From the NCBI RefSeq assembly GCF_039535475.1, contig NZ_BAAAXG010000026.1, positions 2,468,501 through 2,532,500 of the forward strand: 64,000 nt of DNA. The letters run 5' to 3'. The notes below the pieces were generated by a model. That model saw only the letters and a program-made list of their open reading frames with translations, was not told the origin of the DNA and made no database searches. Below, piece by piece: positions 41,351 to 45,126 of the stretch (its first letter is position 1; each line of letters starts with the position of its first letter). A program made the position numbers and the translations under genes. The DNA comes from Streptomyces showdoensis. Lineage in GTDB: Bacteria > Actinomycetota > Actinomycetes > Streptomycetales > Streptomycetaceae.

Positions 41351-42670
41351 TCAGCGCACCTCGATGAACGCCCCGGCCTGCCGCACCGGCCGCTCCTTCG
41401 GCGGCGCCGCCGGACGGCCCACGGCGACCGCGCCCATCGGGTCCCAGCCCTCCGGCAGCCCGAGCACCTCCCGTACGACGTCCCGGCAGAACATCGTCGA
41501 GGAGACCCAGGCCGAGCCGAGCCGCTCCCCGGCCAGCGCGACCAGCAGGTTCTGCACGCCCGCGCCCGCCGCGACCACGAACATCTCGCGCTCGGCGGCG
41601 TCCCGGCGCGGGTCCCCGTAGTGGTGGGCGCCGTCCATGACCAGACAGGGCACGATCAGGTACGGGGCGTTGCGCAGCACGTCGCCGCGGCGGACCCGCC
41701 TGGCGACGGACTCCTCCGACTTCCCGTCCGCCCGCAGGTCCGCGATCCACGCGTCCCGCATCGCGTCGAGCAGCCGCAGCCGCGAGGCGGCCGATTCGAG
41801 CAGCACGAAGCGCCACGGGGTGGTGTGGTGCGGGGCGGGCGCCGTGACGGCCGCCGCGACGGCCCGCCGGACCGCCCCCGGGTCGACCGGCTCGTCGACG
41901 AACTCCCGTACGGTGCGCCGCAGCGTCACCGCCTCCCGGACCGCCTCCGAGGTGCCGAGCCGGAACATGTCGTCGGCGGCGTCCCGCACCAGCGCCCGGG
42001 CGCCCGGTTCCTCGTCGTCGGCGACCAGGCGGGCCAGCCCGCGGACGACGGCGACGGGCCGGCCGGCGGCCTTGCCCTTCACCAGGTCGCCCGCGGCGGC
42101 GAGCTCGTCGCCGGTGGCGACCACGGTCACGTTCAGCTCGTTGCCGTGGGAGTCGGTCACGCCCCGCAGGTCGTCCAGGACCCGCACCCCGGCCGCGCCG
42201 ATGGCGACGTCGGTGAGCCCGCTGCGCCAGGGGCGCCCGAAGGTGTCGGTCACGACCACGCCCACGTCGACCCCCAGCGCCTCGCGCAGCCCGGCGCGGA
42301 TCCGGCGGGCCGAGGCGTCCGGGTCCTCGGGCAGCAACAGCACCGTCCCGGCCGGGGTGTTGGAGGCGTCGACCCCGGCGGCGGCCATGACGAGCCCCTG
42401 CCGGTTCTGGACGATCCGCAGCGTCCCGCGCCGCGCGACGACCCGCACGGTCTCGGCGTCGATCGCCTCCTCGCGGTCGTCCGCGGCGATCACCCGCCCC
42501 TCGGCCTTGCTCACGATCTTCGAGGTGACGAGGAGGACGTCGCCGTCGAGGAGCCCGGGGGAGACGGAGGCGATCAGCTCGGCGAGGTCGTCCCCGGGCG
42601 CCACCTCGGGCAGCCCGTCGAGCGCCCACACCTCGTAGCGGGCCGGGCCGCCGGCGGGGTCCGCCGTCAC
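41351..42670 (-). CDS. fbiB: Coenzyme F420-0:L-glutamate ligase / FMN-dependent domain
   Basis: 439 residues from a GTG overlapping the fbiA stop. N-terminal CofE-type ligase ([61 protein letters not shown]) and C-terminal nitroreductase-fold domain (about 245-439: [27 protein letters not shown]). It adds glutamates to F420-0 and its C-terminal domain reduces dehydro-F420. The two-domain form is the actinobacterial one. Confidence 0.95.
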
Positions 42671-43638
42671 GCGCCGGCCCCGCCGTCCCGGACCTCCGCG
42701 GCGAGCGCCAGCGCCTCGCGGGCCATGGCGGCCGTCGCGTCCGGGTCCGTCATCATCAGCGGCACCGCGCGGCAGCGGATGCCCGCCGCCTCGACGTCCG
42801 CGACCGTGCCCGCGTCGACCGTGTCGACGAGCCAGCCGTCGACCAGCCCGGAGCCGTAGTGCAGCGCCACGGCCGCGGCCGTGGACTCCACGCCGACCGC
42901 CGCGAGCACCTTGTCGGCCATGCCGCGCACCGGCGCGTCGCCGACGATGGGGGAGAGGCCGACCACCGGCGCGGCCGCGGAGGCCACGGCCTCGCGGATG
43001 CCGGGGACGGCGAGGATCGTGCCGACGGACACGACCGGGTTGGACGGCGGGAAGAGGATGACGTCGGCCTCGGCGAGGGCCTCCAGCACGCCGGGCGCGG
43101 GCTTCGCCTGCTCGGCGCCGACCGGCACGACGGCCAGCGCGTCCACGGAGGCGCGCAGCTTCACCCAGTACTCCTGGAAGTGCACGGCCTTCCGCTCGCC
43201 GTCCACGTCGATCGCCACGTGCGTCTCGACCCGGTCGTCGGACATCGGCAGCAGCCGGACGCCGGGCCGCCAGCGGGCGCACAGCGCCTCGGTGACGGCG
43301 CTGAGCGGATAGCCGGCGCCCAGCATCTGGGTGCGGACGATGTGGGTGGCGAAGTCCCGGTCGCCGAGGCCGAACCACTCCGGCCCGACGCCGTACGCCG
43401 CCAGCTCCTCCTTGACGGCGAAGGACTCGTCCTCGCGGCCCCAGCCCTGTTCCTCGTTGATGCCACCGCCGAGGGTGTACATCACGGTGTCGAGGTCGGG
43501 GCAGACCTTGAGGCCGAAGAGATGGATGTCGTCACCGGTGTTGCCGACGACCGTGATCTCCGCGTCGGGCGCGGCCTGCTTGAGGCCGCGAAGGAAGCGG
43601 GCACCACCGATGCCACCGGCCAGAACCACAATGCGCAT
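42667..43638 (-). CDS. fbiA: 2-phospho-L-lactate/enolpyruvyl transferase for F420 synthesis
   Basis: 323 residues. CofD fold: [81 protein letters not shown]. It transfers the phospho-(enol)lactyl moiety to Fo. No Shine-Dalgarno is evident before the ATG. First of the fbiA-fbiB pair; the cysteine dioxygenase gene ends 14 bp... in front of it on the same strand and may lie on the same or an adjacent message. Confidence 0.95.
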
Positions 43639-43651
43639 GCACAGCAGTGTG

Positions 43652-44179
43652 TCAGGCGGGTACGACCCCGGGGGCCGCAGGGGCGTGAGGGGACACCGGG
43701 GCGCACTGGGCGCGCAGCGACTCGTGCATCGGCATCTCGGTGAGGCCCGGGTAGTAGACGTGCAGGCTGACGGCCGGTTCGAGGGAGTCGTTGACGACCT
43801 CGTGGACGTAGCCGGGCGCGAAGATCCGCTGCGCGCCGGCGCCGAGGGTGCGCAGCCCGCGCTCCGTACGCTCCGTCAGGTCGCCCTGGAGGACGGTCAG
43901 CACGCCGGAGGAGGCGCCGTGGTCGTGCAGTCCGCTGGCCTGTCCGGGCAGCCAGGAGAGCAGCCAGACCTCGTAGCCGGGGCCGGTGCGGAGGCGGTGG
44001 TACCAGCGGGTGGTCGCGTCGTACTCGACGTACGGGGCCCACTTGGCGCGGTCGGCGGCGATCTCGCGGGCGAGACCGGCGAACTCGGCCACGGTGGCGG
44101 GGTGCTCGCGGGCGGGCTGCAGGAGGTGCGGGACCTCAAGGATGTCGCCGGCGATCTGAAGGTCGCTGTCCATGTTCAT
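43652..44179 (-). CDS. Cysteine dioxygenase family protein
   Basis: 175 residues from the ATG at 44179; a second ATG at 44173 is possible. Cupin fold with the 3-His iron site: SGLHDHGASSGVLTVLQG (two His) and APGYVHEVVNDS (third His). It oxidises cysteine to cysteine sulfinate; other thiol dioxygenase substrates are possible. GAGGAA lies 11 bases upstream. It follows a polycysteine leader peptide at 44317-44409, which suggests control by cysteine availability. It reads towards fbiA, whose start is 13 bp downstream. Confidence 0.9.
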   Translation of the reverse strand: MNMDSDLQIAGDILEVPHLLQPAREHPATVAEFAGLAREIAADRAKWAPYVEYDATTRWYHRLRTGPGYEVWLLSWLPGQASGLHDHGASSGVLTVLQGDLTERTERGLRTLGAGAQRIFAPGYVHEVVNDSLEPAVSLHVYYPGLTEMPMHESLRAQCAPVSPHAPAAPGVVPA

Positions 44180-44316
44180 GGGTGCGGTGGTTCCTCGGCA
44201 GAAGTGCTGGGGTGTCGCGATGCGGGGGTGGTGCGGAGGGGCTGCGGCGGGGAGGCCGCGGATCGCGGCGGGAGGCCGCGGGGGAGGTGCCGGAGCGCTG
44301 CGGTGGGACGCGCGCG

Positions 44317-44409
44317 TCAACAGCCGGGACAGCAACAGCAACAGCGCGCCTGGACAGCGCGGCGGAACCCACGGGCGTGGGTCGCGGAAGGCGCTGCGGT
44401 CGCTGGCAT
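44317..44409 (-). CDS. Polycysteine leader peptide of the cysteine dioxygenase gene
   Basis: A 30-residue frame from ATG 44409 to TGA 44317, beginning MPATAAPSATHARGFRR and ending in five consecutive Cys (residues 23-27), Pro-Gly and a final Cys30. Its promoter places the transcript start exactly at the ATG, so it is leaderless. It ends 137 bases before the dioxygenase ATG. A run of Cys codons in front of a cysteine-catabolic gene is the layout of an attenuator or translational coupler sensing charged tRNA-Cys. GGTTCC inside the frame (plus strand 44364-44369) can pair with GGAACC at the dioxygenase ribosome site (44189-44194). Confidence 0.85.
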   Translation of the reverse strand: MPATAAPSATHARGFRRAVQARCCCCCPGC

Positions 44410-44415
44410 GCCACC

Positions 44416-44445
44416 AAAGTGGCGGGAGAGACACCCGACTGTCAA
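44416..44445 (-). promoter_or_regulatory. Promoter of the leader peptide and cysteine dioxygenase gene
   Basis: On the minus strand a perfect TTGACA (44445-44440) is followed after 18 bases by CACTTT (44421-44416). Six further bases lead to the ATG at 44409, so the first transcribed base should be the A of the start codon. Confidence 0.65.
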
Positions 44446-44862: not shown

Positions 44863-45126
44863 ATGACCGAGACGTTCCAGGAACTGCTGGTCGAGGACGC
44901 GGAAGAGGAACTCGGCTGGCAGGAGCGCGCGCTGTGCGCCCAGACCGACCCCGAGTCCTTCTTTCCCGAGAAGGGCGGCTCGACGCGCGAGGCCAAGAAG
45001 GTCTGCCTCGCCTGCGAGGTCCGCTCCGAGTGCCTCGAATACGCGCTGCAGAACGACGAACGCTTCGGCATCTGGGGCGGCCTGTCCGAGCGCGAGCGCC
45101 GCCGCCTGAAGAAGGCCGCGGTCTGA
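44863..45126 (+). CDS. whiB: Sporulation regulator WhiB (Wbl iron-sulfur protein)
   Basis: 87 residues, the exact length of WhiB. Cluster ligands Cys25, Cys48, Cys51 and Cys57 are present, followed by GIWGG (69-73) and the basic C-terminal RRRLKK. Apart from the first 15 residues it is nearly identical to S. coelicolor WhiB as I remember it. With WhiA it activates sporulation-septation genes. GAGGGG lies 6 bases before the ATG. Followed by a terminator. Confidence 0.95.
   Translation: MTETFQELLVEDAEEELGWQERALCAQTDPESFFPEKGGSTREAKKVCLACEVRSECLEYALQNDERFGIWGGLSERERRRLKKAAV

Follow-up and report, generated by a model that had tools for sequence, protein, structure and literature searches.

A conserved polycysteine leader upstream of cysteine dioxygenase in Streptomycetaceae and its probable role as a cysteine-responsive attenuator

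The window considered here, a stretch of 64,000 nucleotides of the Streptomyces showdoensis genome (assembly GCF_039535475.1, contig NZ_BAAAXG010000026.1, positions 2,468,501 to 2,532,500), carries a type I cysteine dioxygenase gene (CDO1) followed by cofD and a fusion of F420 ligase and nitroreductase, with a divergent whiB as neighbor (Table 1). Upstream of CDO1 lies a short open reading frame (uORF) encoding MPATAAPSATHARGFRRAVQARCCCCCPGC, which starts with an ATG at 44409, contains a run of five Cys codons followed by Pro-Gly-Cys (CCC GGC TGT) and ends with a TGA (44319-44317). The elements named by the original prediction, i.e., the frame and its coordinates, the Cys run with Pro-Gly-Cys, the TTGACA and CACTTT boxes 18 bases apart, GGTTCC within the frame and GGAACC at 44194-44189, are all present in the sequence, and the cysteine dioxygenase identity that it gave to the downstream gene is confirmed by the domain match. 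With cofD and the F420 ligase fusion located 13 nt beyond CDO1, the leader may also affect F420 synthesis.

Table 1. Coordinates of the features at the cysteine dioxygenase locus, numbered along the window
Feature	Position	Strand	Basis or remark
-35 box TTGACA	44440..44445	-	sequence; TTGAC 31-41 nt upstream of the frame in 267/276 loci
-10-like box CACTTT	44416..44421	-	sequence; 18-base spacer from -35; non-consensus box
Leaderless-type polycysteine uORF, 30 codons + TGA	44317..44409	-	sequence and conservation
CAGCGAC close to uORF start	44399..44405	-	putative rival partner of the Cys codons, from the minimum-energy fold of the window leader only
Hairpin within uORF, ACCCACG-CC-CGTGGGT	44367..44382	-	region folds better than shuffles
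GGTTCC	44364..44369	-	sequence; weakly backed as partner of the Shine-Dalgarno stretch
Five Cys codons TGT TGC TGT TGC TGT	44329..44343	-	putative sensor and, by model, anti-start strand
GUUGCUGUCC	44327..44336	-	complement (with G-U) of CDO start region; GCUGUCC part paired in the fold; similar match in relatives
C-rich, G-poor spacer, 137 nt	44180..44316	-	base count, 78 C / 31 G
CDO Shine-Dalgarno-like GAGG	44193..44196	-	sequence; consensus among relatives
Cysteine dioxygenase type I (CDO1)	43652..44179	-	PF05995, E 2.7e-21
GGACAGCGAC in CDO codons 3-6	44162..44171	-	predicted pairing partner, from the fold and relatives
cofD (F420 biosynthesis)	42667..43638	-	PF01933; starts 13 nt past CDO
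F420 ligase/nitroreductase fusion	3' of cofD, within 41351-44179		domain match
WhiB, divergent neighbor	44863..45126	+	PF02467

The CACTTT box is separated from the ATG by six bases, a geometry from which it had been concluded that the transcript starts exactly on the ATG and that the frame must be translated. The geometry is as described; the conclusion is an over-claim, the -10 box sharing two of six letters with TATAAT and a generic sigma-70 scan of the window leader region giving no promoter. No intrinsic terminator was found between 44100 and 44560 and the longest T run of the spacer is two, the hairpin and U-run of a classical Rho-independent attenuator being thus absent, and the single Rfam match is sub-threshold (E 0.21) and on the opposite strand. 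The hairpin region within the uORF also folds better than synonymous recodings in the non-ML group of leaders; this hairpin might act as an RNA polymerase pause giving time for ribosome loading.

A leaderless-type Cys frame preceded by TTGAC is found upstream of the orthologous CDO in 267 of 276 usable loci, the arrangement being defined as an ATG or GTG frame of 10-60 codons with three or more Cys among its final 15 residues and TTGAC located 31-41 nt upstream. It cannot be attributed to chance, since it occurs in 0-2 of 276 loci in each of ten dinucleotide shuffles, in none of the 276 reverse complements and in none of 137 downstream stretches. The loci were pooled from 80 named records, a genus sample (145 of 150 genomes examined) and a family sample of 17 genera, three sets which may overlap in species and are not independent. 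Within them, the leader is present in all 80 named records, in 138 of the 145 genus-sample genomes, in the one further Streptomyces and in 48 of 50 loci of 16 other genera, with at least one in each (one of the 51 other-genus loci, L168, was omitted, its contig ending there), so that all 17 sampled Streptomycetaceae genera carry it. Two of the nine loci lacking the arrangement, L203 and L292, have the appearance of decayed copies. The leader is real and old, and the claim of a leaderless-type Cys leader of the mycobacterial kind, for which a search in other Streptomyces had been proposed, is supported by this conservation. One record (L026), titled Microtetraspora glauca NRRL B-3735, has a typical Streptomyces CDO and leader, and its name is probably wrong.

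In other actinobacterial families, a looser test was passed by none of 19 CDO1-like loci and by one of 15 loci resembling the second cysteine dioxygenase described below (CDO2), this sole pass (L412) being the CDO1 locus of a genome of the same genus (G088). In such families, L405 and L407/L340 have Cys-rich short frames ending MRCRCCA and GRCCRCC before CDO-like genes, which are devoid of a good -35 box and are perhaps independent leaders. The window's own genome has 43 runs of four Cys, fewer than the 79 obtained with the reversed control pattern; across the surroundings of these runs, 30 of them covered as loci and the other 13 as extracted stretches, the strict leaderless arrangement is that of the CDO1 leader only. 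Applying the Cys-rich criterion to 22 PF01507, PF01077, cysKM and rhodanese loci gave only two frames: L367, which is the CDO2 leader, and L348, a CCCC frame lacking a -35 box.

The encoded peptides fall into unlike groups (MPAT..., MLAN... and others in other genera) united by their start, a Cys-rich end and the -35 box, and among 198 distinct Streptomyces uORFs the mean Cys content is 5.17 in the last 12 residues versus 0.06 elsewhere. The in-frame pN/pS values of 1.17 and 1.29 (0.66, 0.67, 0.40 and 1.01 in shifted frames) give no sign of purifying selection across the peptide, which favors a leader acting in cis over a peptide that is itself functional. A small Cys-rich product with a function in metal binding or redox processes, and without any cis regulation, would account for the conserved start, stop and Cys residues, but not for a remainder which is free of purifying selection and very different among genera, nor for the codon bias and antisense match described hereafter, which lie at the RNA level; we hold this explanation to be very improbable.

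In the predicted fold of the window leader, GCUGUCC of the Cys run is paired with GGACAGC in CDO codons 3-5. The match is longer in other Streptomyces, where Cys-run RNA of the type GUUGCUGUUC faces GAACAGCGAC..., a stretch running from the start-codon G through codon 6. In the best register, 14.07 of 16 positions pair and at least 12 do so in 146 of 148 distinct Streptomyces leaders; these values fall to 11.82 and 59% when the codon order is shuffled and to 11.76 and 60% when every Cys codon is written as TGC, while redistributing TGT and TGC among the Cys codons causes little loss (13.57, with at least 12 in 94%). The pairing register is common to 108 of the 148 leaders. The duplex energy is likewise more favorable with the natural than with the shuffled codon order (-23.8 vs -19.0 kcal/mol, 158 leaders), and the 30 nt directly before CDO give no comparable duplex signal in the same leaders. 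Pairing with the starts of other Streptomyces CDOs is as strong as with the own start (-23.80 vs -23.83), because these starts are nearly identical. Among 31 leaders of other genera, complementarity to CDO +1 to +24 is absent (z -0.02). At two closely related loci of these genera (L185 and L190), the partner of the Cys run is a Shine-Dalgarno and start region whose sequence is quite different. In the window, where CDO codon 3 is ATG, 12 of 16 positions pair. For these pairing tests, 24 of 219 Streptomyces leaders were excluded, their CDO not starting with ATGAAC, and identical combinations were counted once, which left 148 leaders for the 16-nt complementarity, 158 for the duplexes, 186 for the tree and 185 for pairing with the 60 nt upstream of CDO; in the duplex test, 40 leaders had no assignable start.

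The two strands of this putative duplex also vary together. CDO position +14 usually carries the G of Ser AGC or the A of Asn AAC; a uORF T lies opposite the A in 20 of 22 cases, and of 118 leaders with G, 73 have C and 40 have T opposite (Fisher p 1.6e-6). The tree of 186 leaders places seven G-to-A changes at +14, all seven where the uORF partner was already T, against a background of 52 leaders with T opposite +14 among 149 bearing G. These changes would thus pass through a G-U pair. Against covariation, two A-bearing tips later lost the T, and six leaders have a uORF T opposite C at +14. The third-from-last uORF codon (CCC or TCC) tracks CDO codon 3 (9:6 with ATG, 21:74 with AGC, p 0.004, in a comparison that ignores relatedness). 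Codon choice within the Cys run is equally peculiar, with 1050 TGT and 335 TGC in the uORFs versus 0 TGT and 133 TGC in the CDO genes of the same loci, and it is position-specific: TGT prevails at -6 (200:12), -4 (211:17) and -1 (210:5), and TGC at -5 (116:32). As TGT is still dominant (163:73) in the other genera, which have no complementarity to the CDO start, pairing is not the whole reason for this preference.

The predicted effect of a ribosome was assessed by computing the cost of opening CDO positions -17 to +18 over 93 leaders (one in two of 185), which give 94 entries as the window's is counted twice. On average this takes 17.9 kcal/mol in ribosome-free RNA and 19.3 when a ribosome sits early in the frame; occupancy of any one of the first three Cys codons brings the figure to 11.4-12.3, and occupancy of the stop codon to 13.8. 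For a stall at the second Cys, the mean reduction is 6.5 kcal/mol, with 94% of the 94 entries gaining more than 1, and recoding TGT to TGC without any stall has nearly the same effect (11.9 kcal/mol, a change of -6.0). A ribosome that has reached the stop codon likewise makes the CDO start more accessible (-4.1), so that stalled and just-finished ribosomes differ by only about 2 kcal/mol. Shuffling the codons of the uORF end makes the start easier to open (14.32 vs 17.95 for the natural end, which is higher in 80% of 66); in other genera the values are 12.5 and 13.9 (natural higher in 73% of 44), and roughly half of 44 leaders gain more than 1 kcal/mol from a stall. Regarding the window leader itself, it has the five-Cys run of a polycysteine attenuator and the position upstream of a cysteine gene, whereas the unmasking predicted in most Streptomyces leaders is absent relative to the free RNA: the cost is 10.6-10.9 kcal/mol with a stalled and 10.8 without any ribosome, and a stall helps only against an early-frame ribosome (14.2 kcal/mol). 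In its fold, the Cys codons may instead be engaged by CAGCGAC at the uORF start.

Conservation, codon bias, complementarity, covariation and the unmasking predicted in most Streptomyces leaders tested are the computed observations from which a mechanism can be proposed. We consider it fairly probable that the CDO1 leader is a translational attenuator which responds to cysteine and opens when cysteine is low, as in mycobacteria. The mRNA would start at the uORF ATG and be loaded by ribosomes in a leaderless manner, and the Cys codons would serve as sensor; in Streptomyces they would at the same time be the strand complementary to the CDO start, from the start-codon G through codon 6. With ample Cys-tRNA, the ribosome would pass quickly through the uORF and depart, leaving the Cys-codon RNA free to pair with the CDO start and block initiation; when charged Cys-tRNA is scarce, through cysteine limitation or thiol oxidation, the ribosome would stall on the Cys run, cover it and leave the CDO start free. 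Opening at low cysteine is predicted because a ribosome stalled for lack of Cys-tRNA would cover the strand antisense to the start, and CDO would be expected to rise rather than fall under this condition. The leader is thus probably cysteine-sensing and, in Streptomyces, would form an unusual dual code; we infer that this also holds in the window's own strain.

Polycysteine leaderless short ORFs are reportedly attenuators in mycobacteria, according to the work of Canestrari and colleagues in 2020. Like these leaders, as cited in the literature consulted (PMC13236596, PMC9094748, PMC9031893), the Streptomyces leader has a leaderless start, here suggested by promoter geometry, a Cys run, a downstream cysteine gene and, as folding predicts in most Streptomyces leaders tested, a base pairing by which the start of that gene would be masked until a ribosome stalls. 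It differs by its occurrence in Streptomycetaceae, by its unrelated peptide and by a target that degrades cysteine; moreover, its Cys codons are themselves antisense to the first codons of the target. Candidate Cys leaders upstream of cys operons and cbs were proposed in Mycobacterium, Propionibacterium and Bifidobacterium, with runs of Cys codons near the stop codon as here; for cysteine, neither Streptomyces nor CDO is mentioned in the portions consulted of that article (Seliverstov et al., 2005, PMC1262725). Streptomyces leader peptides, several of them leaderless, have been described in S. lividans TK24, where the sections consulted give eight attenuators (Leu, Trp, Ala, Ile, Met and Thr) and none for Cys or CDO (PMC8079986). 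Within the titles and abstract openings searched, a scope outside which subscription papers and supplements fall, there is neither a Cys leader at CDO nor an instance of Cys codons antisense to a start. The NCBIfam families NF042934 ("putative leader peptide", cis_reg_atten) and NF042933 (Ms5788A, a Cys-rich leader peptide) likewise comprise short leaders; the window uORF has no match to the former at E up to 10 (curated cut-off 27 bits) nor to the latter (curated cut-off 45 bits), and nine CDO1 leaders of other genera have none to NF042934 at E up to 1.

A member of NF042934 precedes the second cysteine dioxygenase of the same genome, CDO2 (L367/L370, contig C28 near 404.3-405.9 kb; PF05995, E 3.3e-45), which adjoins genes for rhodanese, recX and recA. 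Its leader ends with RRVHMDLVRYAGCMCRPSC and matches the family with E 4.3e-10; it is of the leaderless type, and all 35 Streptomyces loci examined share its near-invariant core (RRVHMDL.RYAGC.CRPSC), 32 of them with a -35 box agreeing at five or more of six letters; the Cys codons are 67 TGC and 35 TGT. The own genome contains twelve NF042934-like leaders at E <1e-3 (L420-L431), of which nine exceed the cut-off, two of them only with their neighbors in frame. By position, these nine include matches upstream of a cysK/M gene, sulfite reductase, rhodanese and CDO2, and by eye such leaders also precede a sulfatase and a transporter; together they constitute a candidate ribosome-sensed sulfur regulon. 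That a CDO shares its leader family with cysteine-synthesis genes gives further indirect support to the low-cysteine sign.

Published expression data bear on this sign. In wild-type S. coelicolor treated with 0.15 mM H2O2 for 2 h, the RNA-seq table of PMC4991794 gives SCO3035 as up 6.54-fold and, by our own count, 14 of the 28 genes above the paper's threshold belong to sulfonate/sulfate-to-cysteine clusters; SCO3036 is absent from this table. SCO3035 is CDO1 by synteny, since SCO3034 is whiB (PMC4255298). The response is one to oxidative stress, is a change in mRNA and, as stated in the same report, is lost in an hbpS-senS-senR mutant (PMC4991794). The neighborhood of CDO2 allows a second assignment. 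Taking recA to be SCO5769 in S. coelicolor, as we assume, SCO5772 is probably CDO2. The same H2O2 table has SCO5772 up 8-fold (PMC4991794).

The original prediction held the opposite sign, with CDO switched on at high cysteine. In such a reading, CDO would be kept off at low cysteine by a hairpin straddling the stop codon or by the pairing of GGTTCC with the Shine-Dalgarno sequence which that prediction proposed. Such a switch suits a cysteine-degrading enzyme, and induction of this enzyme at low cysteine is indeed metabolically odd, which counts against the explanation that we prefer; the folding also lets a ribosome at the stop codon open the CDO start. Induction by high cysteine is nonetheless unsupported: the Cys run is antisense to the CDO start and SCO3035 rises together with cysteine-biosynthesis genes, which is opposite to expectation, and no terminator is seen in the leader region. 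The hairpin whose 5' arm is formed by the last uORF codons and the stop gains -5.57 vs -4.63 kcal/mol in shuffles (z -0.61, 208 Streptomyces leaders), and six stem positions pair in 944 of 1092 cases against a mean of 927, above all 1000 permutations, a signal that falls within the permutations once identical combinations are counted once (236 vs 231.5, sd 3.2). As for GGTTCC and GGAACC, the pair exists, and pairing of uORF positions 34-60 with the Shine-Dalgarno sequence exceeds synonymous recodings slightly (in 72% of 107 and 60% of 78 leaders), but a stall does not open the Shine-Dalgarno stretch taken by itself, and the opening of GAGG is, on average, unaffected by ribosome position (184 leaders). 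It is most likely that both the sign and the main pairing partner of the original prediction are wrong, and a switch at high cysteine appears unlikely.

Several pairings were discarded in the course of the analysis. Besides sequestration of the Shine-Dalgarno sequence by the uORF and the stop-codon hairpin, whose modest signal differs in other genera, these are a long-range pairing of the middle of the uORF with the spacer, no better than with the spacers of other species, and a pairing of the uORF with the 60 nt before CDO (-33.1 vs -30.9 in shuffles), no better than after swaps.

The leader might also act on transcription, the position of the ribosome on the uORF setting Rho-dependent termination in the C-rich spacer. 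C exceeds G in all 185 spacers (median ratio 2.07), the published change of SCO3035 is at the mRNA level (PMC4991794), and Rho has been proposed for the mycobacterial cys leaders by Seliverstov et al. (PMC1262725). C-rich spacers may, however, be common in such GC-rich genomes, the spacer would be untranslated in both states, such that the role of the Cys codons is left unspecified, and the antisense match to the CDO start finds no explanation; this alternative seems to us unlikely, to much the same degree as a high-cysteine switch. Attenuation of CDO translation opened at low cysteine stays our preferred reading.

If so, ribosome-sensed control by cysteine would extend from mycobacteria to Streptomyces, and to a gene for cysteine degradation. 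This mechanism makes an exact prediction: CDO should be released by a leader in which TGC replaces TGT, with the peptide unchanged, and brought back under control once the first CDO codons are altered to match. More tentatively, and with less than even confidence, we propose that both Streptomyces cysteine dioxygenases are cysteine-starvation genes, each with its own leader, serving sulfur salvage or redox control rather than the removal of a surplus, the CDO1 leader being a dual code in which a run of the otherwise avoided TGT is at once Cys-tRNA sensor and antisense of the first six codons of its target. Salvage could consist, for example, in the release of sulfite from thiols for a co-induced sulfite reductase. 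Should the low-cysteine sign prove true, the view of bacterial cysteine dioxygenase as a valve for surplus cysteine would need revision in these bacteria.
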